The notes beneath the pieces are model-generated. The model was given only the letters and a program-made list of their open reading frames with translations. It did not search any database and was not told where the DNA came from. This document shows positions 2,963 through 20,409 of a stretch of 30,553 bases of DNA, one piece after another. The position numbers and the translations under genes were made by a program. Each line of letters begins with the position of its first letter. The first letter of the stretch is position 1. This stretch comes from a virus: positions 1 through 30,553 of IMG/VR virus record IMGVR_UViG_3300003690_002535, one strand, 5' to 3'.

Positions 2963-3244
2963 TGTTATCCCTAGACTGCTATTCAGAGTTGTCTCTAGAC
3001 TGATAATTTAAATAATTCAAGGCTTTTCAGGAATCCAGATTTCGGTAGATTCACTCACATATGCCACATGCTCTATTTTTTAGAGGATTCAAAAAAAGAG
3101 ACTCCTTTTTCGGGGGTAAAGGGGTGGAATAAAATGATGATCTTTTTATTTTTTTGTTCTAGGAGTCCCATAGAGACTCCTTTTTAGGGCTAAAGGGGCG
3201 ATATAAAAAATAATTTTTTAAAAAAAATTGTTCTCAATTATTTT
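2963..3244. other. array-flanking AT-rich region with direct repeats
   Basis: No gene is seen. Two copies of AGAGACTCCTTTTT followed by a G-rich stretch and TAAAGGGG lie at 3097-3124 and 3172-3198. The second copy begins inside the hairpin at 3161-3181. A strongly AT-rich run (about 3199-3244) leads directly into the first well-conserved repeat at 3245. The position would suit a leader for the repeat array, but this is inference. Confidence 0.45.
3161..3185 (+). terminator. terminator-like hairpin upstream of the repeat array
   Basis: AGGAGTC (3161-3167) pairs with GACTCCT (3175-3181) around a 7-base loop, followed by a T run to 3185. On the plus strand this has intrinsic-terminator shape, but no plus-strand gene precedes it, so it could instead attenuate or insulate transcription entering the array. 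Confidence 0.4.
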
Positions 3245-3466
3245 GATTCATTCGCTTAATTTGGTACTTTTAGCAGAACTGATTCATTCAATTGGAATGG
3301 TACTTTCTAATGGAGTGATTCATTCTAATTAATTGTAACTTTCCAAGGCTGTGATTTATTCAATCATCGTGGTACTTTCTGATCATCTGATTCATTCGAT
3401 GTGTTTGGTACTTTCGATTTCCTTGATTTATTCTTGTTGAATGGTACTTTCCGTCGCTTCGATTCC
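3245..3466 (+). repeat. TIGR-like array, block A (about 6 units)
   Basis: The period is 36 bases: GATTYATTC, 9 variable, GGTACTTTC, 9 variable. GATTYATTC copies start at 3245, 3281, 3317, 3353, 3389 and 3425, and GGTACTTTC-type copies at 3263, 3299, 3335, 3371, 3407 and 3443, with no spacing error. The base before each conserved block is nearly always T, so the repeats are really TGATTYATTC and TGRTACTTTC. This block has the least degenerate repeats and abuts the AT-rich possible leader. The layout matches published TIGR arrays (36-nt unit, two spacers). The strand given is the one on which I describe the unit; the transcribed strand is unknown. Confidence 0.85.
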
Positions 3467-3955
3467 TTACTTGACGATTACCCGTCCTTCCGAATCAAAA
3501 GGACGCCAAACATTAACCTTGTCACTACCGGGCGGAATGCCTTCAAAGATTTCCTGCATCCGGTAACATTGGGCAACGGTAAGGACAGTCCCATAAGGAA
3601 AAACAGTCACTATGCCATACTCTAACCGTGCCTCGCCGTCTCGGATGTACTGTAAAGCCATCGGCCCGGTAGTACCGTTGCCGAAAATCAGATCGGGAGA
3701 CAATTCCTTAACTGTGATATCAAGCAAAGGCGAAATCCATATTTTCTCTTTGCCCAAATTGGTTTTTTGACCTTTCGGACGTAGGACTGTCTGCCCGCTA
3801 TCCAAAACAACTGGCACCATTACAGTCTGCGTTCGTCCTTTCATCGACGCCGATATGCCCCTTGTTTGTTCGGGCATCCCAATATCTTCTTTCACTTGTA
3901 AAGAACATCGGCGATCTCTCGGCGGGTCAAATCCGGCTTTGGTAATAACTATCAT
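3467..3955 (-). CDS. hypothetical protein, 162 aa, in a GC-richer island inside the array
   Basis: ATG at 3955 follows a GGGG-type ribosome site 17 bases after the stop of the preceding small gene. The protein is soluble, with no cysteine cluster or membrane segment. Recognisable stretches include KEDIGMPEQTRG and VLRPKGQKTNLGKEKIW, but I cannot place the family. About half the bases are G or C in places, clearly above the AT-rich surroundings, which suggests recent transfer. The stop codon lies in a decayed repeat (GATTCCTTA). Block A of the array ends at this gene and block B starts upstream of its partner. Confidence 0.65.
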   Translation of the reverse strand: MIVITKAGFDPPRDRRCSLQVKEDIGMPEQTRGISASMKGRTQTVMVPVVLDSGQTVLRPKGQKTNLGKEKIWISPLLDITVKELSPDLIFGNGTTGPMALQYIRDGEARLEYGIVTVFPYGTVLTVAQCYRMQEIFEGIPPGSDKVNVWRPFDSEGRVIVK

Positions 3956-3972
3956 CTTTACCCCAGAAGGTT

Positions 3973-4125
3973 TTAGATTACGGGTTGCCCGTCATATATC
4001 GCAGTCGTGTGGAAATGCTTGCCAGGCTCAGTGCTATAACGGTGTAAGTCTTTCGGAACGACGCTATATTCAATTAAGTCTCTAATACGCTCGTAGGCGA
4101 ACTCTGGCAGCTTGTGAGTGGTCAC
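3973..4125 (-). CDS. hypothetical small protein, about 50 aa, N-terminus uncertain
   Basis: The frame is open on the minus strand up to 4347, but everything upstream of about 4135 is array sequence. It would encode a meaningless hexapeptide repeat (KVP-x3-NES-x3). I therefore place the start at GTG 4125, giving VTTHKLPEFAYERIRDLIEY and onwards to GQPVI. No strong ribosome site is visible. It is followed after 17 bases by the 162-aa gene and shares its GC-rich composition. It may be the truncated remainder of a longer gene whose front was replaced by array sequence. Confidence 0.45.
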   Translation of the reverse strand: MTTHKLPEFAYERIRDLIEYSVVPKDLHRYSTEPGKHFHTTAIYDGQPVI

Positions 4126-4138
4126 TATCCAAGTAAAT

Positions 4139-4399
4139 GGTACTTTCCGTCGCACTGATTCATTCCAGCATCGTGGTACTTTCGATTCCTTTGATTTATT
4201 CTTGATCCATGGTACTCTTCCTGGCGGTGATTCATTCCAACGGTTTGATACTATAAGTCGTCTTGATTCATTACAAGAATGTGATACTGTAGGTGGTCTT
4301 GATTCATTCCTGAAGTATGGTACTCTCCAAAGAGTTGATTTATTCACACTGTATGGTACTTTCTGGAAACTTGATTTATTTCAAAGACTTGATAATTTT
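4139..4399 (+). repeat. TIGR-like array, block B (about 7 units)
   Basis: GGTACTTTC-type blocks start at 4139, 4175, 4211, 4247, 4283, 4319, 4355 and 4391, alternating every 18 bases with GATTYATTC-type blocks at 4157, 4193, 4229, 4265, 4301, 4337 and 4373. The first 18 bases (AATGGTACTTTCCGTCGC, 4136-4153) repeat exactly the sequence at 3440-3457 at the end of block A, so the island between the two is bracketed by a direct repeat. Confidence 0.85.
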
Positions 4400-4513
4400 T
4401 GGGTTCCCATCTGGTGAAGAGTGGTTTAATTTTATGTGACGTTCCACTCCACTTTTATGCATATAAGGCATATTGCATATAGGACACTGATATCTTATTA
4501 CTAGTGCAGCCAT
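4376..4513 (-). CDS. C2H2 zinc-finger microprotein, 45 aa
   Basis: I translated this by eye. ATG 4513-4511 follows AGGA 6 bases upstream. The protein contains CPICNMPYMHKSGVERHIKL followed by NH, a compact C2H2 finger (C-x2-C-x12-H-x4-H), so DNA or RNA binding is likely. Its last residues (KIIKSLK) and its TAA stop are encoded by repeat units of array block B, so array and gene overlap by about 24 bases. It belongs to a three-gene minus-strand cassette between blocks B and C. Confidence 0.7.
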   Translation of the reverse strand: MAALVIRYQCPICNMPYMHKSGVERHIKLNHSSPDGNPKIIKSLK

Positions 4514-4541
4514 AAATTCCTATTTAGTCCTACCTTTTTTA

Positions 4542-4682
4542 TTAAGGGGGAATCTGGCGCACTGTTAAAGGCATCGTCAGTACTAATTTGCACTTGGAGC
4601 ATACAATCGATCTCCAATCTAAGTGACTGACTTTGAAACGCTTCTGGCAGTGGGGACATTTAATTTGGATTATTGTTGTCAT
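4542..4682 (-). CDS. zinc-ribbon microprotein, 46 aa
   Basis: I translated this by eye. The chosen ATG at 4682 has a GGGGGAA ribosome site 6-7 bases upstream. An in-frame ATG at 4706 would add 8 residues but has no such site. Two cysteine pairs, CPHC (about residues 9-12) and CSKC (about 28-31), form a classic zinc ribbon. Such ribbons in phages often bind nucleic acid or RNA polymerase parts. It is followed 28 bases later by the C2H2 microprotein. Confidence 0.7.
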   Translation of the reverse strand: MTTIIQIKCPHCQKRFKVSHLDWRSIVCSKCKLVLTMPLTVRQIPP

Positions 4683-4723
4683 CGTCCATTCCCCCTGGGT
4701 TCCCATAAGGTCTAACAGAAATA

Positions 4724-5092
4724 TTAACTATTTTCTAAAATCTGACGTTTAAAATCTTCATCCTTAATATTTCCGTTTGGACTCTCTTGCTCTAATTTAC
4801 GTATAGTCTCAAGATAGGATTTAGATTTCACCTTAACATGATGAAAAGTTTCTAGATGTAAGTCCCAGGCGTCATGCATAGCTTCCTGAGTATTGTAGAA
4901 ATTCCAATAGTCAGTCACTTCTAACAATTTTTGACATGTTGGCCGACCATCAAGCCACGAAAATAATTGAACTAGAACGAGCCTAGGTGGTAAATAATCT
5001 AATATATGACCTTGGTAAGTGATATCACCATCTTCTTTATATATGTGGAACCATTTATCCCTTACCATTGTTCCTTGCTCTAACTCCTGCAT
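4724..5092 (-). CDS. hypothetical protein, 122 aa
   Basis: ATG at 5092 follows a GGAAGG ribosome site. The N-terminal half (about residues 10-55) looks like a compact beta domain (WFHIYKEDGDITYQGHILDY), and the rest is helical and charged, ending KRQILENS. No family is recognised. It is the first gene of the cassette between array blocks B and C. It starts just below a copy of AATTTTGGGTTCTCAT (5127-5142) that also occurs, with one C/T change and one extra T, at the other edge of the cassette (4394-4410). Confidence 0.65.
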   Translation of the reverse strand: MQELEQGTMVRDKWFHIYKEDGDITYQGHILDYLPPRLVLVQLFSWLDGRPTCQKLLEVTDYWNFYNTQEAMHDAWDLHLETFHHVKVKSKSYLETIRKLEQESPNGNIKDEDFKRQILENS

Positions 5093-5150
5093 CCTATACC
5101 TTCCTTTATTTAATTACCCCTTAAAAAATTTTGGGTTCTCATGGAGCCAT

Positions 5151-5410
5151 GATTTATTACACTTGATGATTTATTCAGGTGACTTGGTACTTTCTTGTTA
5201 GATGATTCATTCGCCAGGCTTGGTACTATTGATTGGTGTGATTAATTCAAAAAGCTTGGTACTTTCACGGCCTATGATTCATTCACAGTGCTTGGTTCTT
5301 TCATTAGTGATGATTCATTCGATGAATTTGATACTTTCTGGAAATTTGATTCATTCCTTCTAAATGATACTTTTGCCAAATATGATTCATTTGCCAAGCT
5401 TGAAGTTGTT
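5151..5410 (+). repeat. TIGR-like array, block C (about 7 units)
   Basis: Block starts alternate every 18 bases from 5168 (GATTTATTC), 5186 (GGTACTTTC) and 5204 (GATTCATTC) through 5384 (GATTCATTT). The first repeat (5151) is only 17 bases from the next and both are of the GATTTATT type, so a half-unit has been lost. Spacers GCCAGGCTT (5213), GCCAAATAT (5375) and GCCAAGCTT (5393) resemble each other. The block fades at about 5410, just before the stop of the next gene. Confidence 0.85.
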
Positions 5411-5421
5411 TCTCTTGAGCC

Positions 5422-5772
5422 TTATCTGTTCATCCACAGCAACAATGCGAAAACCTCATCGAGATTGTAAACTCGATCCGCCCAATATGTAAGTTTCCCA
5501 TCAGATTGGTTCTTTTTACAGACAGAATAACTAGGATCACCGCCCAAAGGTTGAATTTCTACGAGGAGTTGATTTCCTGCATGCGAAACCCACTCCATAT
5601 CAAGTCCTCCGTTGGGTAGAGGATCTACGGATAATTCCATACCCAGATGGTCAGTAAAAGCCTCAACTGACTCTAATATTAGTCGAGCAGTTGCTGTCGC
5701 TTTTCTCGTTGTCGGAACTCCCCCATCTCCATCCCAATCAATTGGAAGCTGCGGGTAACTTGATATTTTCAC
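5422..5772 (-). CDS. hypothetical protein with N-terminal WDG motif, 116 aa
   Basis: The start is GTG 5772-5770, which lies inside a repeat unit (GATATTTTC at 5762-5770), so the first codons are array-derived. Near the N-terminus is LPIDWDGDGGVPTTRKATAT, resembling a motif of small bacterial proteins (WDG.g..p.s..ai..A) of unknown function. A beta-rich segment follows (LDMEWVSHAGNQLLVEI), with a helical C-terminus. It is bacterial-like rather than typically phage, so it may be accessory cargo between array blocks C and D. Confidence 0.6.
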   Translation of the reverse strand: MKISSYPQLPIDWDGDGGVPTTRKATATARLILESVEAFTDHLGMELSVDPLPNGGLDMEWVSHAGNQLLVEIQPLGGDPSYSVCKKNQSDGKLTYWADRVYNLDEVFALLLWMNR

Positions 5773-6842
5773 GAGCTATGATTCATTCTGGTCCACTTGA
5801 TACTTTCTTGATGCCTGATTCATTCATTCGGAATGGTACTCTTGGTGCTTTTAATTCATTCAAACAGTTTGATACTTTCATTAGTTATGATTCATTCAGG
5901 TGTTGTGGGACTATCTATTTACGTGATTTATTCAGGATATTTGGTACGTTCTAGCTTCCTGATTTATTCAGTATTAGATAATTCATTCTATCCACTTGAT
6001 ACTTTCGCTGGTACTGATTTATTCGATGATTATGCTACTTTCGACTAGGTTGATTAATTCGAATACATTGGTACTGTCCTTCGTGGTGATTCATTCACTT
6101 TTATTGATACTTTAGTCGTAACGCATGCTTCATTCGCAGCACCTGATACTTTCTTGTGTTTTGATTTATTCGCTAAACACGGTACTCATAACATCTCTGA
6201 TTCATTCAAAACATATGGCACTATCCTGGTGCATACTTCATTCTTCTGGCTTGATACTTTCCGGAAATTTGATTTATTCCTTCTGAATGATACTCTCTCC
6301 TGAGATGATTTATTCTAGGCAAATGATACTTTCTCCTGAGATGATTTATTCTGGGTAGATGATACTATCCTGATTCATGATTCATTCATAATATGTGATA
6401 CTTTCACTAGCCATGATTCATTTACGCTCTATGTTACTTTCGGTCATAATGATTAATTCATCAAATCTGGTACTTTCTAACCAGATGATTCATTCTGAGG
6501 CTCTGGTACTCGCAAGTTTCGTGATTTATTCGTCCGATGTGGCACTCTTTCGAAGAATGATTTATTCACGATAGATGATACTGTCTGCATAAATGATTTA
6601 TTCTCAGTCAGTGGTACTCTCCGTTGAACTGATTTATTCAATAAGCATGGTACGTTCCTGATTCTTGATTCATTCCGGCCAATTGGTACTATCGAGATCT
6701 GTGATTCTATCTTATAGATTCTGATTGTTCATTCAAGGACTTTGATACTTTCTTGGTGCTTGATTCATTCTAAGAATGTGATACTGTCATTGTATGTAAT
6801 TCATTCGGGGAAGATGATACTTTCAGTTTGTTTGATTCATTC
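5762..6842 (+). repeat. TIGR-like array, block D (about 30 units, the longest block)
   Basis: The 18-base alternation of GATTYATTC and GRTACTTTC holds almost without error for over 1 kb. Exceptions are a 10-base gap at 5789 and one at 5970 (where two GATTC-type repeats are adjacent), and 3-base insertions near 6115-6126 and 6723-6734. Nearly every spacer ends in T. Spacer TCCTGAGAT occurs twice, at 6298 and 6334, in neighbouring units. The unit CGGAAATTT/CTTCTGAAT (6262-6288) is nearly identical to TGGAAATTT/CTTCTAAAT (5339-5365) in block C. The block runs into the stop codon of the next gene: TGA at 6839-6837 is part of a repeat. Confidence 0.88.
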
Positions 6843-7091
6843 AAAAAATGGTTCTGTTCCTTTTTCTTCTATATGAACAAACCACTGTTCAATTGCTGCT
6901 ACTAAAGTGCATCCATCAGATTTGTAATACGTTTTATTCTTCGCTGGTGCACTTACGCTCCAATATCCATGAGTTTCTAAATCTCTCTCACCAGATGATC
7001 TTATAGTTAAATCATACGTAGCATTAAGTATACGCTGATATGCCTTTATATCAGCATCAGTCAAAGTATAATGACCCTGATCATTCTTCAC
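6837..7091 (-). CDS. hypothetical protein, 84 aa
   Basis: The start is GTG at 7091 with a GAGGATG ribosome site. The protein is soluble: a helical N-terminus (DADIKAYQRILNATYDL), then a beta-rich part (HGYWSVSAPAKNKTYY) and VAAIEQWFVHIEEKG. No family is recognised. Its stop codon is inside the last repeat of block D, and block E begins about 20 bases upstream of its start, so the array closes tightly around the gene. Confidence 0.6.
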   Translation of the reverse strand: MKNDQGHYTLTDADIKAYQRILNATYDLTIRSSGERDLETHGYWSVSAPAKNKTYYKSDGCTLVAAIEQWFVHIEEKGTEPFFE

Positions 7092-7111
7092 GCTACATCC
7101 TCATAGTATGA

Positions 7112-7705
7112 GTTTCATTCGGCAATTGTGATACTTTATACTCTCCTGATTCATTATTATTCTCATTATATGGTACTTTTTCAGTATGTATAATTCATTC
7201 TCGTGGTTTGATACTTTCAGCGATTATAATTTATTTCTCGTCTTTGTTACTGTCTAATCTTCTGATTTAGGCTTACTTAGTGGTACTTTACGGCCTGATA
7301 AGTCATCAGGCCGTATGTTACTATCCTGGCTCAGGATTCATTCTCATAGTTTGTTACTTTCCTAGGATTAGATTCACTTTTCTCTCTTTGATACCTTCAT
7401 TCCTACTGATTTACTCCTCTAACATGATACTTTCTCATATCAAGGCTCACTCGTCAGGGTTGGTACACACTGGATAGATGGTTTACTCCTAGAGTCTAGG
7501 ATGCTCTATATTGTGGGACATTCAGAAACTTTGGTACTTTCTTCTCGTTTGATTTATTCTGTGATTTGGGTACAATCGCTTGGGCTGATTAACTTTGGTA
7601 CCCTGTTACAGTCCAACATCGTGGTTCACACTACAACACCGTGGTACTCTAGCCATCGATGGTTCATTCTGAGTTACTGTTATTATTCTGGTAGATGATT
7701 TCCTA
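7112..7705 (+). repeat. TIGR-like array, block E (about 16 units, degenerate)
   Basis: The same 36-base plan, but with many changed repeats (GATTCACTT, GATTTAGGC, GGTACACAC, GGTTTACTC, GGACATTCA) and irregular gaps (15 bases at 7157, 11 bases at 7181). Good copies persist at 7210, 7335, 7425, 7533 and 7551. Loss of consensus increases from about 7440 to the end at 7705, where it meets the stop of the 41-aa gene. Such decay is what one expects at the old, leader-distal end of a growing array. Confidence 0.8.
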
Positions 7706-7899: not shown

Positions 7900-7928
7900 A
7901 TTTTATCAAAAATGATACACTAAGTCAA
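7900..7928 (-). promoter_or_regulatory. sigma-70 promoter
   Basis: Minus strand -35 TTGACT (7928-7923) and -10 TAAAAT (7905-7900), spacer 17. It overlaps the 3' end of the HNH gene and would transcribe the 41-aa membrane gene and then the repeat array on its minus strand. It is therefore one candidate for array transcription. Confidence 0.55.
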
Positions 7929-8240
7929 TGGCAATAATATACGTCGCCAGAGACTACGTTGTTGACGTTTTTGTTTCTTAAAATCTTTCTCACGCTTACG
8001 CCAGTTACAGTTGGCACATAGTAGTTGATATCGTTTTGGTTCTTTAAATACCTGTGTGTATAGCTGTGAGCGTGATAGATGACGTTCTAGATGACCATCT
8101 GCATTTACATGGTCAATCTGTAGAACTTTAGAGTCTTTCATCTTACATTTTTGGCATTTATTACCTAGCAGTTTGTAAACGTGTTGTTTTCGTCTTTGTA
8201 TGTAAGAGACTTTTTTTTTCTTAAATAAATTAAATATCAT
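7920..8240 (-). CDS. HNH endonuclease
   Basis: This 106-aa protein has a complete small HNH fold: C29/C32, then QIDHVNADGH at residues 41-50 (catalytic His 44), then LLCANCNWRKR at 73-83 (C75/C78 with the Asn of the motif). The ends are strongly basic, as in DNA-binding nucleases. Small free-standing HNH proteins of this type in phages act as homing nickases or help terminase. With no terminase nearby, a homing or anti-competitor role is likelier. The start codon overlaps the stop of the preceding gene by 4 bases. Confidence 0.85.
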   Translation of the reverse strand: MIFNLFKKKKVSYIQRRKQHVYKLLGNKCQKCKMKDSKVLQIDHVNADGHLERHLSRSQLYTQVFKEPKRYQLLCANCNWRKREKDFKKQKRQQRSLWRRILLPLT

Positions 8241-8465: not shown

Positions 8466-8924
8466 TTATGGCTGACAATCCCACTCTTCACTTCTTACGG
8501 TAGTTGGAACATTTACGACAATACAGGCTTGTTCTAAGATGTCTTTAACCTCAGTTTGTGGATACCACACTGATGCAACTATACGAGTAACATTACTATT
8601 AGCTAATATTTTTGCACAATCAAAACATGGCGTAACTGTTAGATATGCCGTAAGTTCATCTGTAGATTGTAGCTGTAAGAGAGCATTCATTTCTGCATGC
8701 ACTGCTTTACATTCATTTAAACGTGTCCCAGATGGTGCATCGGCACCTTTACAGGGGTAATCAATGCAATGAATAAATCCTTTAGGTACACCATTATATC
8801 CTGTTGCAGCTACATGATTCTTTTTATCTACAAGGATACAGCCGACGGCTCTTCGTTTACATGTACTGCGTAGGGCTACTAGTTTAGCCATCTTAAGAAA
8901 ATAGTCATCTACTTCTAATCTCAT
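8466..8924 (-). CDS. deoxycytidylate (dCMP) deaminase family protein
   Basis: Counted from ATG 8924 (152 aa), the zinc site is complete: HAE at 76-78 and PCFDC at 99-103. An extra Cys/His cluster (FIHCIDYPC) between them is typical of dCMP deaminases. The enzyme converts dCMP to dUMP and supplies thymidylate precursors for phage DNA. I prefer 8924 over the longer frame to 8975 because GAGAGGA lies 8 bases upstream and the longer version would run through the terminator at 8941-8970. Tyr/Asn at TGYNG is also conserved. Confidence 0.9.
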   Translation of the reverse strand: MRLEVDDYFLKMAKLVALRSTCKRRAVGCILVDKKNHVAATGYNGVPKGFIHCIDYPCKGADAPSGTRLNECKAVHAEMNALLQLQSTDELTAYLTVTPCFDCAKILANSNVTRIVASVWYPQTEVKDILEQACIVVNVPTTVRSEEWDCQP

Positions 8925-8940
8925 CAGGATTCCTCTCAAA

Positions 8941-8970
8941 AAGAATCCCTGCCCATTAGCAGGGATTCTT
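8941..8970 (-). terminator. intrinsic terminator
   Basis: A perfect 12-bp stem (AAGAATCCCTGC at 8941-8952 with 8959-8970) around a 6-base loop is followed by a T run on the minus strand. It ends transcription of the 68-aa gene upstream and also places the deaminase start after it. Confidence 0.85.
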
Positions 8971-8981
8971 TCCATTATAAA

Positions 8982-10111: not shown

Positions 10112-11158
10112 TTACTCCATATATTGTAATAATGTTTGTCCCACTACCTTACTTAATACGCATGGTACGGCATTGCCAATTTGACGATATTTTGCTGCAG
10201 TAGTGCCTGTAAAGTTCCAATTGTCTGGAAATCCTTGTATACGAGCGTATTCTCGTATACTAAGAGGACGAGTTTCATCGGGATGACATAGTCCTGTTGC
10301 CTTTTGTACTGGACTAGTCATTAGTGTAGGTGACCATTTATCCCACGATAGCCTTCTCCAAAATCCAACTCGGCCACCAGTAGAATTATATGCTCCACCT
10401 AATATTTTTTGAACATATTCTGGTGTGTAGTTAGGTGAGTCTCTAAAGTATCTCCAATTTCCACCTGAAGGCACTTCACTATATATTTTAGCCCGTGCTT
10501 CACTATAAGACATACATTCTATTTCTTCATTAGGTAAATATGTTAATGCTTCCCATAGAACTTTATAGGGCTTATATGTACCTGGGCCATGTGTTGGAGG
10601 CAGTAATTGTAAGATAGGTAGTTTTGCAGGCCAGGTTCCAAATTCATGGTCACGACTACCAATAATCAAAAATCGTTTTCTATCCTGAGGAATACCATAA
10701 TCTAAAGAACTAACTAATCCTGTAGCTAATTCATATCCTAATGCCATAAATCTAGGAAATATTTCTTCATGAAGTACACTTCCTATTGGTTTATCAGGTA
10801 AATTAGCTGACTCTAGTCCACGTACATTTTCCATTATAAAAAATCGTGGTCTAGTTTCATCTATTATTCTGATAAATTCAAAGATTAGATTTCCTCGTGG
10901 ATCTTCTAATGATTCTCTTTTTCCTGCTGTACTGAATGATTGACATGGTGGCCCTCCAGAGACTAAATCGTATAGTCCCTTAGAGCCTTTATATGTTTTT
11001 ATATCTTCGTGGATATCATTAGTCCATGTAACGTTTTGAGATAAAGTGTCTCTACAAGATTTATCAGCTTCTACATAAGTGATGGTTTCAAATCCTGCTT
11101 GTTCTAATCCAATATCTAGACCACCGGCACCACTAAATAGGGATAAATTAATTGGCAT
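10112..11158 (-). CDS. DNA (cytosine-5-)-methyltransferase
   Basis: From ATG 11158 (348 aa) all main C5-methyltransferase motifs are in order: SAM-binding LFSGAGGLDIG near residues 7-17, GGPPCQSFS with catalytic Cys 72, ENV at 110-112, QDRKRF at 158-163 and GNAVP near residue 328. The enzyme methylates cytosine C5 in a short target. There is no restriction partner nearby, so it is a solitary phage methylase, likely protecting its DNA from host restriction. TTG 11176 is the first possible start. I prefer 11158 because it begins one base after the stop of the preceding gene, a usual coupling arrangement. Confidence 0.95.
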   Translation of the reverse strand: MPINLSLFSGAGGLDIGLEQAGFETITYVEADKSCRDTLSQNVTWTNDIHEDIKTYKGSKGLYDLVSGGPPCQSFSTAGKRESLEDPRGNLIFEFIRIIDETRPRFFIMENVRGLESANLPDKPIGSVLHEEIFPRFMALGYELATGLVSSLDYGIPQDRKRFLIIGSRDHEFGTWPAKLPILQLLPPTHGPGTYKPYKVLWEALTYLPNEEIECMSYSEARAKIYSEVPSGGNWRYFRDSPNYTPEYVQKILGGAYNSTGGRVGFWRRLSWDKWSPTLMTSPVQKATGLCHPDETRPLSIREYARIQGFPDNWNFTGTTAAKYRQIGNAVPCVLSKVVGQTLLQYME

Positions 11159-11159
11159 A

Positions 11160-11489
11160 TTATTGCTTAGGCTCAAACATTACGGGTAATCCCCAAGTAT
11201 CACGCATCACCATCAAAGCAATGACACCTGCATAGTTTGCTAAGTCTTTCCAAGCATCTTCTCGTTCTTCATCAGGTAGTTCACGGAGATTACATTCACC
11301 TAAGAAAAAACAATTTTTATGATCTTCTTTAATCCTAGCTAATTTATCATTGATACGAACAATTAAGCCATGAATTCCCATCCCTCTAATGTTCTCTGGG
11401 CCGTACTTATACTGCCTATCAAGCATTAGTTCTCGCATCTCTACGAGGATGAGATCCATGGCTTCTTCAAAAGTATGTGGTTGTCCCAT
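11160..11489 (-). CDS. DUF1599/Nmad1-like (nucleotide-modification associated, MazG-like) protein
   Basis: This 109-aa protein has the pattern KYGPENIRGMGIHGLIVRIN, then DKLARI, then DAWKDLANYAGVIALMV. The family signature is YG-x-N followed by a helix with R..DKl.R and a final DlanYa helix, as in DUF1599 and related all-alpha NTP-pyrophosphatase-like proteins. Members often sit near base-modification genes. Here it lies directly before the cytosine methyltransferase, with its stop one base from that start. A strong promoter and an AGAGG ribosome site precede it. Confidence 0.75.
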   Translation of the reverse strand: MGQPHTFEEAMDLILVEMRELMLDRQYKYGPENIRGMGIHGLIVRINDKLARIKEDHKNCFFLGECNLRELPDEEREDAWKDLANYAGVIALMVMRDTWGLPVMFEPKQ

Positions 11490-14140: not shown

Positions 14141-14637
14141 TACAATCTAATCCATTCTCGTCTATCAACTACCACAGGTCTGGCTTTTTGTGCCATTTCA
14201 TAGGCTTCATCAATAGTCTTATCATGATATTTATGTAAATACCATACAACTGTTAAAGGACTACGTTCCATACCCATAGCACAATGAACCACTACTTTAG
14301 TATCATCATTTTTTAGTAATACTTTATTGATAAGCGTGGCTAATTTAGTTAAGTTTTTCTTAACTGTACCTGAACCGGGGTTTATATCAGCTTGTATTTG
14401 TGCAGTTGAATCTAATTCACCTGCAACGTTAATTGTGAAATAGTCGTTTACTACAGCTTCATCACAGCCTTCAAAATCAGTAATACCTACCCGGTCAGTA
14501 ACCCAATGAATATCATCAATGTCAAAGTTGGCAGGTATAGCTCGTCCTTGACGTTCTACTAGGTGTCGTAAGTCGTCTAATCGTTCTCGTGAGGGACTAT
14601 TATCTCGATAGTAGTTTGGAGAAATTTTATACTTCAT
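14140..14637 (-). CDS. dual-specificity / tyrosine phosphatase-like protein
   Basis: This 165-aa protein has the signature P-loop HCAMGMERS at residues 118-126 (Cys 119 nucleophile, Arg 125) after the strand TKVVV, as in dual-specificity phosphatases. Such enzymes remove phosphate from Tyr/Ser/Thr or RNA 5' ends. An Asp-containing loop further upstream would serve as general acid but cannot be fixed by eye. The start overlaps the nuclease gene by 11 bases. A phage version could counter host kinase signalling or act on nucleic-acid ends. Confidence 0.85.
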   Translation of the reverse strand: MKYKISPNYYRDNSPSRERLDDLRHLVERQGRAIPANFDIDDIHWVTDRVGITDFEGCDEAVVNDYFTINVAGELDSTAQIQADINPGSGTVKKNLTKLATLINKVLLKNDDTKVVVHCAMGMERSPLTVVWYLHKYHDKTIDEAYEMAQKARPVVVDRREWIRL

Positions 14638-14998
14638 TAGTTTTTATTATCCACGGTTTCTTTTTACCCCCTTCGTATTCACGGGCATGTCCTTCATCTA
14701 TTAACTGGCTATTGATACTTTTATCATTAACTATTACGTCAGCTAATACACGACCAAATTTTCCTTTTTCTTTTGTACATTGAATGGAAACTTTTTGGCC
14801 CTTTAATAATTCTTTTAATCTAGCTTTTGCAGCTAGTCCTAGAACCTTTTCTGCCTTTCGACGTGTGCGACTTTCAGGTGTATCAATACCTGCCATACGC
14901 ACACGAGCTTTATGCCAGATGTTAAAACCAAGATCAATATTTACATCGATGGTATCTCCATCGATTACACGAGTGACTTTACAGAGATATTCAAACAT
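14627..14998 (-). CDS. SNase-type (thermonuclease) nuclease
   Basis: A 123-aa OB-fold nuclease of the staphylococcal type. Motifs are VIDGDTIDV (residues 11-19), RMAGIDTPE with catalytic Arg 34 and Asp 39 (34-42), and KFGRVLADV (80-88, Arg 83). There is no signal peptide, so it acts in the cytoplasm, possibly in host DNA or RNA breakdown. It shares an operon with the phosphatase and zinc ribbon downstream. Confidence 0.92.
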   Translation of the reverse strand: MFEYLCKVTRVIDGDTIDVNIDLGFNIWHKARVRMAGIDTPESRTRRKAEKVLGLAAKARLKELLKGQKVSIQCTKEKGKFGRVLADVIVNDKSINSQLIDEGHAREYEGGKKKPWIIKTNEV

Positions 14999-16188: not shown

Positions 16189-17286
16189 TTACGCCATAGG
16201 CCAATTAGGTGGCGATAGATAGTGAGTATGTCCCTCTTGGTTGAGAATATAGGGCTTAGGAGGAGGAGTACCAAAAGTACTTTCATATGCCACATGGTGC
16301 CAGTGACTCAAGAAGAGTTTGACCGCATATCGCTTTGCCCTAGCATGAATATGTGCAGGAGGCAATATACCTTGTGAATATGCCTTATAGGCATCGGTAG
16401 ACCTGCCTACCCGTTCCAACTTCACCTTGGCTTGTTCTTCGTATTCGCCATTCTCGTTATTCTGTATTTCCAGAAGTTTACGAGCAGCATATACATGTCC
16501 GTAGACATCTTCCGAGTGGTTGCTAACCTTGACGAAAGACTCTCCTGCCTTCCAGCAAATCAGCTTTAGATCAGCATTCCACGGACGTTTGGCAAGAGTT
16601 TTGACGATATTATCTTTAGTAAGATAAGAACCCTTACCGGTTGACTCTGCAAATGCTTGCACTTGAGTCATTAAAGCGTCTGCCTTACGGTTAGCCGCAG
16701 TTGCTATTTCAACAAACTGTGCTTCCGTAGCTTCAGCACCACGACCTACTAGTTCATTAACTAGTTTGGCAGATTTTTCCCTGCCCAACCAATCTAGTGT
16801 GGGGTCTAATCCTGCAAATCGCCAAATATGGCCTACGGTGGGAGCTTTATTGATATCTATGTGAGCAAGTAGTCCCGCAGATATTACTGGCCCAATACCC
16901 CGTATCGACTCAGCCCATCGTCCTATTACTTCCATACTAGAAGCAACGGAGAGGAACTTTAGAATATTCTTCTCAGTAGTCTCAACACCTTGGGAAATAA
17001 AACTGAAGACTGAGGCGGGATCATTTTGTTTGGACAATGCACTAACTCTGTTATTCAAAAGTTTACGCATTTCCTGAATGGCATAGTATGACGAGACAAG
17101 AAAACGAACTTCATCTTTCGACATCTCTGTGGGATTTGCTCCCATCTTAGTGAGAGCATCTTTAGTAATTCGTCGGACTAGTTCAATCTGAAACGATCGT
17201 ACTTTACTGAGGTCTAAGTAATCGTCATTGTCATTGTCATCGCCAAACATACCTAGGTCCGTTGGAGGGGATTTTAGACCAACCAT
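16189..17286 (-). CDS. Tas-like protein (Nop/IS110-like RNA-guided DNA-binding protein)
   Basis: Counted from ATG 17286 (365 aa), which has GGAGAAAGG just upstream; ATG 17301 has none. An acidic stretch (about 16-25) is followed by a long helical region (26-120). Then comes SIRGIGPVISAGLLAHIDIN with GIGP at 130-133 and AGLDP at 158-162, the helix-hairpin-helix-like hallmark of the IS110 transposase C-terminal domain. A helical middle leads to HARAKRYAVKLFLSHWHHVA (about 314-333) and a tail with GHTHYLSPPNWP. The IS110 DEDD RuvC domain is absent, as is a HNH motif, so it is not a transposase. Tas proteins carry a Nop domain related to box C/D proteins and IS110, so with the 36-base array in the same phage this fits a nuclease-less Tas. 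It has its own promoter and is GC-richer than its neighbours. Confidence 0.72.
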   Translation of the reverse strand: MVGLKSPPTDLGMFGDDNDNDDYLDLSKVRSFQIELVRRITKDALTKMGANPTEMSKDEVRFLVSSYYAIQEMRKLLNNRVSALSKQNDPASVFSFISQGVETTEKNILKFLSVASSMEVIGRWAESIRGIGPVISAGLLAHIDINKAPTVGHIWRFAGLDPTLDWLGREKSAKLVNELVGRGAEATEAQFVEIATAANRKADALMTQVQAFAESTGKGSYLTKDNIVKTLAKRPWNADLKLICWKAGESFVKVSNHSEDVYGHVYAARKLLEIQNNENGEYEEQAKVKLERVGRSTDAYKAYSQGILPPAHIHARAKRYAVKLFLSHWHHVAYESTFGTPPPKPYILNQEGHTHYLSPPNWPMA

Positions 17287-17357
17287 ACCCTTTCTCCGCA
17301 TCGTTTATAGTCGGATACAAGACTGTAAAAGTTGCTCTCATTCGAGAACATATTAGT

Positions 17358-17394: not shown

Positions 17395-18288
17395 TTACTC
17401 ATGATTTTTAGGCAAAAGTTCGATAAGCAGCTTATCAGCATATTGCGCAGCTAAAGTTTTATATTGTCGTCCCAATCCATGAATGTTTTTATAATCTTTA
17501 ATTGACTGAACAAATATCTGGCTTGTGAGAGAGGGCGTATTGTAGTGTTGTTTGATGCTTTCTAACCATCGTCCTAGTCCATTAGTTTTACCTATTGTAA
17601 TTTTAATAAATTCTCTAAAACCATTTTCTAATTGATTAGGAACGTATTCTACTTTTGGAGTGTCTATATTATTACGACAAGTTAAACAGGCCCATGTAAC
17701 TCTTAATGGATGCTGATAGTCGGAATGTATTGCTTGAGAATTTGCATTGCCACATTTGTAGCAAGATTCTTTTTGTAAAATTCCACTTTTTAGAGCTTTA
17801 TATACTTGGTAATAAGCTCTTTGGCGTTCTGGATGTTTTTGTAGAAGAGCACGAGTGGCTTTACCGTGACTTTCTTTCCCTTTTCCAGTTCGATAATAAT
17901 TACGTTGCCATTCGGCTCTGCAAGCTAAACATCTAGTTTCATATCCCGAATGAGCTATATTACTTTTAGCAAATTCTTCTAGAACTTTATATGTTTTACA
18001 TGCGATACATTGATAATATTTACCAGGAAATCGTTTGACTATTTTGGCATGTGAACGACAATAAGTAGCATTTTTACTTATATCAATGCCACATGCCTTA
18101 CAACAATTAGCTATTGAAGGTAAGCGATGATGTCTTTGCTCACCCAATTTATCTAATAAATAACAGATTTGTTGACGAGTGATACTGAAGCTACGGCCTA
18201 ATTTTGCTGTATTAATGCGTCCATTAGGGTGCTCTACCAGATATTTTTCTAGGCGTTGTCTAGTGGTTAATTCTGCCAAAATATTCAC
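17395..18288 (-). CDS. HTH plus multi-zinc protein with a degenerate HNH-like end
   Basis: A 297-aa protein. The N-terminal helix-turn-helix (about 25-48, TAKLGRSFSITRQQICYLL) is followed by four zinc pairs: C63/C66 with C77/H80, C94/C97 with C120/C123, and C176/C179 with C201/C204. The last pair encloses IHSDYQHPLRVTWACLTC, the pattern of phage HNH domains (aHHdDY..PL.v.WlC..CH), but the first His of the HH pair is Ile and the final CH is CR, so cleavage is doubtful. The start is GTG 18288, or more likely TTG 18279, which has AAAGG 7 bases before it. It lies directly upstream of the Tas-like gene, with a promoter between them. Confidence 0.75.
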   Translation of the reverse strand: MNILAELTTRQRLEKYLVEHPNGRINTAKLGRSFSITRQQICYLLDKLGEQRHHRLPSIANCCKACGIDISKNATYCRSHAKIVKRFPGKYYQCIACKTYKVLEEFAKSNIAHSGYETRCLACRAEWQRNYYRTGKGKESHGKATRALLQKHPERQRAYYQVYKALKSGILQKESCYKCGNANSQAIHSDYQHPLRVTWACLTCRNNIDTPKVEYVPNQLENGFREFIKITIGKTNGLGRWLESIKQHYNTPSLTSQIFVQSIKDYKNIHGLGRQYKTLAAQYADKLLIELLPKNHE

Positions 18289-18818: not shown

Positions 18819-19313
18819 GTGGATTCTAATCTTAAGGAGTGGAGTTTTGTCTTTTTCGACTTGGGAGCAAAGGAAGCCGCCAGAAGGGTGCGGTTGCTTC
18901 GTGGTTTACGACGTGTTGGGGCGGCCTTACGTAACCAAAGCGTGTACTGCATGCCATATTCGACAGGTAGCTTTACGTCCCTTAAACGGTTGGATAAGGA
19001 TATTTTTGTGGTCAAAGCTGCGGTGGAAGAAGATGATATCGAGGAATTAGTCGAAGCGTACAATATGTTCATTATTAATGTAATGGAAGAGGTACATGCG
19101 AAATTAGACGCATTAGAAGATGCTAAAGCTTCAGCTGTGGATGTACAAACTAGACGTGGATATACTAAGCGTCTTAATAAGATGTATGAACGTATAGATC
19201 ATTTAGAATATATAGCTAGATTAGGACAGAATAGTAAGGTAATAGATACGGTTGAAAAATTTAAACTTCAGATAGTTGAGATTGATGATGGTGAGCCAGG
19301 TAAACTTATATAA
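18819..19313 (+). CDS. ChrB N-terminal-like protein
   Basis: Start GTG 18819 is chosen because AGGAG lies 8 bases upstream; ATG 18798 would be almost leaderless. The first 55 residues (EWSFVFFDLGAKEAARRVRL followed by LRGLRRVGAALRNQSVYCMP) match the layout of the ChrB N-terminal domain: a beta strand, then s..R..lwR.Lr..GA..l...vy.lP. That domain is known from chromate-resistance regulators but occurs widely with uncertain role. The rest is helical and charged (EEDDIEELVEAYNMFI). A nucleic-acid-related role is a guess. Confidence 0.55.
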   Translation: MDSNLKEWSFVFFDLGAKEAARRVRLLRGLRRVGAALRNQSVYCMPYSTGSFTSLKRLDKDIFVVKAAVEEDDIEELVEAYNMFIINVMEEVHAKLDALEDAKASAVDVQTRRGYTKRLNKMYERIDHLEYIARLGQNSKVIDTVEKFKLQIVEIDDGEPGKLI

Positions 19314-20409
19314 TAAATATAGACCTCAAAATTTAAATGAAATTGTTGGACAAGATGCCATTTCACGTATTCTTTCTAATGCAGTATTAAAGAATCATAT
19401 TGCTAATGCGTATTTATTACGTGGTCCACGGGGCAGTGGTAAGACATCAATAGCGAGAATTCTTGCAAAAGCGGTTAATTGTGAACAATTAAAGGGATTT
19501 ACAGCGTGTGGTTTTTGTACGGGTTGTAAATTTGCTTTACATGATGCGGTGGAACTAGATGCTGCATCTCATAGGGGTATTGATGCGGTTAAGAATTTAA
19601 TAGATACGCTTTATCTTCGTCCTCAACACGTAGATGTGAAATTTGTCATTATAGATGAAGCTCATCAATTAACATCGGCTGCGTTGAATGCTTTATTAAA
19701 AGTAGTAGAAGAACCACCTAAACATGTTCATTTTGTGTTTTGTACTACAGAAAACCCTTCTTCTATGACAGATACAGATAAGGCGTTTGTGACGTTATCG
19801 TCACGGTGTCAAATTCTTCAGTTTAAAAAGATTAGTCCTAAAGCCATGTTAGATAAATTGGCTAGAATTTGTTTGGCAGAAGATAGGACTATACCACGTG
19901 ATATTTTAGTAAGTATTATAGGAAAAGCCGATGGTTCGTTACGTGATGCTGAAAATATTTTAGATACTATTCTTACTTTATATGATTCCGAGCCACCAGA
20001 ACGAGTAATTCAATTTTTATATGGTGATGTTGAACGTGTAACTCTTGAATTATTTGCACATTGTGGTAATGGTACACTTAATGAGTGTTTTTTAACTGCC
20101 CGAAAGTTATGGGATTTGGGAGCAAATCCTGTTGAAATCGCAGAATTTATGCTTAATTTTGTTACTGATACTGTATATTTGAACTCTCAATTGACAGTTT
20201 ATCGCTCATCTGCTATCGTTGATAAGTTAAAAGAAATTTCTAATAATATTGAACAAAGTAAGTTATCTACAATTGCACTAGCTTTTACTCGTCTACAGAC
20301 ATCAAGACAAGATACTTTACTTGCATTAGAATTGACAATCTGTGATATATTTACTGACCATATCGATACTACAGAAGTTGCAGTAACTTCTGATATAGAG
20401 GTGTGGTAG
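19285..20409 (+). CDS. dnaX: clamp-loader ATPase subunit (DnaX gamma/tau-like)
   Basis: Counted from ATG 19285 (374 aa): YRPQNLNEIVGQD at the start, Walker A GPRGSGKTS (47-55), zinc site C66/C75/C78/C81 (CEQ..CGFCTGC), Walker B FVIIDEAHQ with DEAH at 124-127, sensor-1 CTTEN near 153, and the SRC arginine-finger motif at 173-175. These are the hallmarks of the bacterial DnaX family, which loads the sliding clamp for replication. The length suits gamma without the tau extension. It overlaps the ChrB-like gene by 29 bases. Phages usually use T4 gp44-type loaders, so a DnaX-like one points to a large phage with partly host-like replication. Confidence 0.9.
   Translation: MMVSQVNLYNKYRPQNLNEIVGQDAISRILSNAVLKNHIANAYLLRGPRGSGKTSIARILAKAVNCEQLKGFTACGFCTGCKFALHDAVELDAASHRGIDAVKNLIDTLYLRPQHVDVKFVIIDEAHQLTSAALNALLKVVEEPPKHVHFVFCTTENPSSMTDTDKAFVTLSSRCQILQFKKISPKAMLDKLARICLAEDRTIPRDILVSIIGKADGSLRDAENILDTILTLYDSEPPERVIQFLYGDVERVTLELFAHCGNGTLNECFLTARKLWDLGANPVEIAEFMLNFVTDTVYLNSQLTVYRSSAIVDKLKEISNNIEQSKLSTIALAFTRLQTSRQDTLLALELTICDIFTDHIDTTEVAVTSDIEVW

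Follow-up and report, generated by a model that had tools for sequence, protein, structure and literature searches.

The window analysed here, a virus contig of 30,553 nt (30.6 kb) taken whole from IMG/VR record IMGVR_UViG_3300003690_002535, carries a long array of short repeats and, 8.5 kb away from it, tasA, a gene for a Tas protein, on the same strand by homology (Table 1). Read on the + strand, the array is made of two repeats of 10 bases each, TGATTYATTC (the edge repeat) and TGRTACTTTC (the loop repeat), which alternate at 18 bp with 8-base slots between them. This alternation was already part of the original prediction, and it is borne out by 111 edge/loop neighbours exactly 18 bp apart (each repeat matched at 8/10 positions or better), against a mean of 0.4 and a maximum of 2 in a Markov-1 control. 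At the same threshold, no such neighbours were found on the opposite strand or in the rest of the window. Similarly, the composite repeat pattern gave 52 matches with three mismatches or fewer, all on the + strand, and the control gave none.

Table 1. Positions of the array blocks, of the reading frames between them and of other genes in the window.
Feature	Coordinates	Strand	Remarks
TIGR block 5	3244..3469	-	3' end of the array in the predicted direction of transcription; final repeat, at 3244, is an edge repeat
162-aa ORF, between blocks 4 and 5	3467..3955	-	no family match
TIGR block 4	4138..4399	-	15 repeats
122-aa ORF, between blocks 3 and 4	4724..5092	-	88% identity over 86 aa to the G001 gene directly downstream of the G001 array
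TIGR block 3	5150..5392	-	13 repeats (5167-5392) and one decayed repeat
116-aa ORF, between blocks 2 and 3	5422..5772	-	no family match
TIGR block 2	5761..6858	-	largest block; 59 repeats
84-aa ORF, between blocks 1 and 2	6837..7091	-	stop codon inside an edge repeat; no family match
TIGR block 1	7111..7705	-	5' end of the array in the predicted direction of transcription; repeats decayed (7111-7669, then decayed to about 7705)
Small HNH protein	7920-8240	same as array	weak PtuB-like match; directly upstream of the array
dCMP deaminase	8466-8975		
C5 cytosine methyltransferase	10112-11176		
Staphylococcal-nuclease-like protein	14627-14998		
tasA	16189..17301	-	370-aa Nop-domain Tas protein without N-terminal nuclease
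Endonuclease-VII/HNH-like gene	17395..18288	-	directly upstream of tasA, same strand
Clamp-loader ATPase	19276-20409		

When repeats matching at 7/10 positions or more are counted, the array holds 65 edge and 63 loop repeats, although two of them, at 5051-5078, look like chance, and 114 spacers, nearly all of 8 nt. This corresponds to about 60 units, 51 of which are fully intact, that is, with an uninterrupted edge-A-loop-B-edge order. The coordinates and the period first given for the array were right, while the figure of about 66 units was slightly high. The summed length of repeats and spacers, about 2.3 kb, agrees with the 2.4 kb or so first noted, and is spread over positions 3244 to about 7705. 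The array as it was described earlier is real; it is, however, not one run, being divided into five blocks with four small minus-strand ORFs between them. The repeats decay increasingly toward 7705 (Spearman 0.30, p 5e-4), and some units of block 1, with its decayed repeats, may be dead. A search of Rfam gave no match, and a scan of the array region for sigma-70 promoters and terminators found such sites to be no more numerous than in shuffled sequence. Arrays of the dual-repeat TIGR type end in a truncated edge repeat and an intrinsic terminator; in the window, the final edge repeat has an AT-rich stem and a T-run beyond it, but these fold no better than shuffles and give no firm terminator.

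Some further features of the array region may be recorded here. Between blocks 4 and 5, the DNA that holds the ORF has the same 18-bp sequence on either side, as a direct repeat (3440-3457 and 4136-4153). This sequence is composed of one loop repeat with portions of the adjoining spacers, as if the ORF-bearing DNA had been inserted into, or recombined within, one unit. A palindromic motif, TGGGAACCCA, is found at 4400-4409, 4696-4705 and 5132-5141, between genes near the array, and has five copies in the sister phage G001; it is possibly a regulatory site.

The product of tasA is matched by the Pfam family Transposase_20 in its C-terminal region only (residues 130-206). In a phmmer comparison with the sequences of solved structures, it was related to TasR (1.2e-14) and TasH (1.5e-6), and a profile of 19 relatives run against the PDB gave TasR at 2.5e-26, TasH at 5e-16 and IS621 at 9e-4. 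The AlphaFold model of the protein (pLDDT 82, with residues 1-42 of low confidence) resembles TasH (Z 18.5) and TasR (Z 16.9) more closely than IS621, an IS110-family recombinase (Z 12.9). In the fold matches to TasR and TasH, the aligned part starts at residues 57-60, past the nuclease domains of both, and the alignment to IS621 starts only at IS621 residue 125. A protein-family search found no nuclease family on the tasA product; the N-terminal RuvC or HNH domain by which TasR and TasH are recognised is absent, as is the N-terminal DEDD (RuvC-like) catalytic domain of the IS110 family. Since it lacks an N-terminal nuclease, the protein is classed as a TasA, and, as judged from its sequence and modelled fold, it is a real Tas protein. 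By alignment, it has an insertion of about 70 residues between GLDPTxxWLG and KRPWN, which among the aligned relatives is otherwise present only in G001 and G002. The endonuclease-VII/HNH-like gene next to tasA is kept in G001 but is absent near other tas genes, and it is therefore left outside the system.

The association of such proteins with such arrays was examined in 2.9 million viral contigs, by protein and by repeat. The protein search gave 26 Tas relatives, most of which are accompanied, usually directly downstream, by a 36-bp or 34-bp array on the strand of tas. With the repeat pattern of the window alone, searched at the DNA level, ten contigs were matched; six of these encode a Tas relative, all six with the same orientation of array to tas, and the remaining four are short or partial. 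No close relative was found by tblastn with the window protein in phage and plasmid collections. When tas itself, ORFs that are array sequence and ORFs overlapping tas on the other strand were left out of the count, only two gene families were seen to recur near tas as possible conserved partners, and the three contigs concerned are the same for both (G015, L016 and L021). It had been stated beforehand that a TIGR array would be contradicted if, in related phages, the repeats bore no relation to Nop/Tas proteins; such a relation was looked for and was found in both directions of search, with a Tas protein in the same record besides. The 36-base period, the repeat length, the 8+8 spacers and the matched repeat ends also fit published arrays, which have two distinct alternating repeats of 8-12 nt and spacers of about 8-9 nt, as well as the array of Salicola phage CGphi29.

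The strand of the guide is suggested by the relatives. Repeats of the form GA......CA, such as GAACGAGTCA and GAGAGAACCA, are found in them on the tas strand. For CGphi29 (HQ634153), Faure et al. (2025, PMC12045711) sequenced the 36-nt RNAs of the array. The tas strand of this array gives the edge repeat AAGCGAGYCA and the loop repeat AAGACAACCA, both ending in YCA, and a GC hairpin and a T-run come after the edge repeat with which the array closes. Since the arrays of the checked relatives and of CGphi29 have the orientation of tas, and their repeats end in YCA, the guide RNA of the window is, by homology, the minus strand, with the edge GAATRAATCA and the loop GAAAGTAYCA. Transcription of the + strand, on which the repeats were first quoted, was considered and rejected in view of the tas-strand arrays of the checked relatives and of the RNA-sequenced Salicola phage. 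On the minus strand, edge and loop both start with GA and end with CA, in line with the matching box D/box C ends and closing pair of dual-repeat TIGR arrays, and positions 1 and 9 pair in 85% of edge and 76% of loop repeats. An extra A2-U8 pair is present in 88% of edge repeats versus 38% of loop repeats; an additional pair in edge repeats has been reported for TasR (Faure et al. 2025, PMC12045711). The 8+8 bases of the window also agree with the total spacer length of 16 nt in the Salicola system (Faure et al. 2025, PMC12045711).

On the model of homologous TIGR systems that have been characterised, it is proposed that the array would be transcribed from the minus (tas) strand and that the transcript would be cut in the middle of the edge repeat into 36-nt tigRNAs. 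Each of these would consist of half an edge, the 8-nt spacer A, the loop, the 8-nt spacer B and another half edge. One tigRNA would be bound by a TasA dimer through the GA...CA ends that edge and loop have in common. The DNA site would be about 16 adjacent bp, with one spacer pairing to one strand and the second spacer to the other. Without a nuclease, TasA would bind and bend its targets and not cut them. The outcome could be a block of transcription or replication, or the guidance of another factor. It is very probable, taking the evidence together, that the locus is a genuine dual-repeat TIGR-TasA system of a tailed phage. Points that speak against this reading are the 8.5 kb between array and tas, the want of a firm terminator, the targets sought and not found in the own and related contigs, and the decay of block 1.

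Such a system is of a kind already known, and what is unusual is the length and the splitting of the array. As in the dual-repeat TIGR-TasA systems described by Faure et al. (2025, PMC12045711), there is a Nop-only protein, two alternating 10-nt repeats in a 36-nt unit, matching ends of edge and loop repeats, and a tailed phage as host of the locus. Unlike those, the window has about 60 units instead of the usual 5-15, its array lies in five ORF-split blocks at a distance from tas, where the published arrays are beside it, and the Nop C-terminal region of its TasA carries the insertion. SpTIGR-TasH of CGphi29 shares the 8+8-nt spacers, the YCA-ending repeats and the array on the tas strand; TasH, however, has an HNH nuclease and cuts DNA, and its array is short and beside tas.

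In most Tas relatives, too, the array is directly beside tas. The sister phage G001 shares synteny with the window, its proteins being about 30-88% identical, and its array, about 7.6 kb from tas, is in the corresponding position; in a second sister phage, G031 (141 kb), an array of 108 repeats lies about 10 kb from tas. The long distance is thus a trait of the phage group and not an accident of assembly. Long arrays are likewise present among the relatives, with 48 intact units in G031, 40 in L030 and 35 each in G010 and G019. Only a single unit can be recognised in both the window and G031; it lies close to the 5' end (TCGATGGC / CGGTGYTG, near 7634-7669), and 15 of its 16 spacer bases are the same.

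Possible targets were sought with the published geometry (PMC12045711), in which A lies on one strand and B on the other with a gap of 0-2, and re-paired spacers served as controls. One possibility is a regulatory role, with guides directed at the genome or transcripts of the phage itself and not at other DNA. As TasA lacks a nuclease, binding to self would presumably be non-lethal, which speaks for this option. It is nevertheless unlikely: against the own contig, which would be about a fifth of the genome if the 141-kb G031 is a guide to its size, the true pairs did no better than re-paired ones (W: observed mean 0.797, permuted 0.789, sd 0.006) and gave no full match, and in the G031 genome no spacer pair stood out. 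The sisters and other related contigs, about 0.9 Mb in all, also gave nothing above re-paired spacers. For the G031 array, an apparent excess of two-mismatch sites in sister contigs was set aside, as it was largely due to a few sites present in homologous copies. The idea that the array targets competing elements, which belonged to the original prediction, and with it a role in defence, is therefore unsupported, as no target stood out in the own or related contigs; true targets may lie in other DNA.

The array might alternatively be a decaying relic of TIGR origin, from which working guides are no longer made. The decayed repeats of block 1 and the four ORFs that interrupt the array would fit this. 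Against it stand the 51 fully intact units, the invariance of loop C9 (63/63 repeats) and of edge A6A7 (65/65), and an intact tas frame whose product is 79% identical to that of the sister G031, and a relic is quite improbable.

The array resembles CRISPR in being long and in having repeats with variable spacers; it differs in its two alternating 10-nt repeats, in place of a single repeat of 25-36 nt, and in its 8-nt spacers. IS621 and other IS110-family bridge-RNA recombinases share the Nop-like RNA-binding fold, but they have the DEDD catalytic domain and use a single bridge RNA, whereas the guides of the window form an array. That the repeats are a CRISPR-like or other array unrelated to Tas, and the protein a coincidental IS110-like transposase, as the 8.5 kb between them and the transposase calls of Pfam and PHROG might suggest, is highly improbable and already largely refuted, given that the two are connected in many unrelated contigs, whether the search starts from the protein or from the array, that the IS110 catalytic domain is missing and the fold is nearer to TasH and TasR, and that no Cas family is among the PADLOC matches listed for ten window proteins.

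With the TIGR-TasA reading retained, the related arrays give some indication of how such arrays change. Six of them (L016, L018, L021, L022, L023 and L027) have many spacers in common. For a spacer shared among these six, the partner across the loop was the same in 158 of 167 comparisons and the neighbour across the edge in 85 of 161 (Fisher p 2e-19, the comparisons not being independent). In this group, 48 A and 49 B spacers make up 52 different A-loop-B combinations, whereas 76 different combinations occur across edges. A second group (L030, L031 and L033) shows a weaker contrast, with 15/23 for the loop and 11/21 for the edge. In related arrays, A-loop-B is thus inherited as one unit. L022 and L023, whose Tas proteins differ at one residue, are distinguished by one extra unit and one duplicated two-unit stretch. 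As A-loop-B is kept while the order turns over, gain, loss and duplication affect the whole unit that lies between edge repeats, with an occasional exchange of half units. Polarised growth of the array was also considered and rejected: decay increases toward the 5' end of the array in the window, but a gradient is missing from most of the other arrays, and both ends are retained in the L016 group.

The role of the nuclease-free TasA and the mode of array growth were both called open by Faure et al. (2025, PMC12045711). It may tentatively be suggested, as a possible though rather doubtful answer, that the locus is a nuclease-free guide library borne by a phage, with about 60 guides of two parts each, whose silencing would need binding alone, and that it changes through gain, loss and duplication of whole units, with breaks in the edge repeats and without an adaptation enzyme such as Cas1-Cas2. 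The locus and its relatives form a natural series of long phage TasA arrays, in which sister phages allow the turnover of units to be traced. The loop-joined spacer pair, as an inherited unit, supports the tandem use of spacers independently of biochemistry.

A few observations concern the Tas relatives themselves. L013 (G015) encodes one, with no dual-repeat array detected nearby, and may use the stem-loop type of array. In L026 (8237-10372), tas is a frame of 711 aa with an insertion inside the conserved VLCW motif, which starts with CCHPDT and ends with VHN before CWKLG; by sequence, it appears to be an intein of several hundred residues. Tas relatives are also found in bacterial assemblies (L098-L104, from Halomonas, Acidobacteriota, a Gemmatimonadetes MAG and others), and these are possibly proviruses. 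Lastly, the PHROG family phrog_4285, labelled 'transposase' (integration and excision), is matched by TasA over nearly its full length (2.5e-47), and is probably the TasA family under a wrong name.
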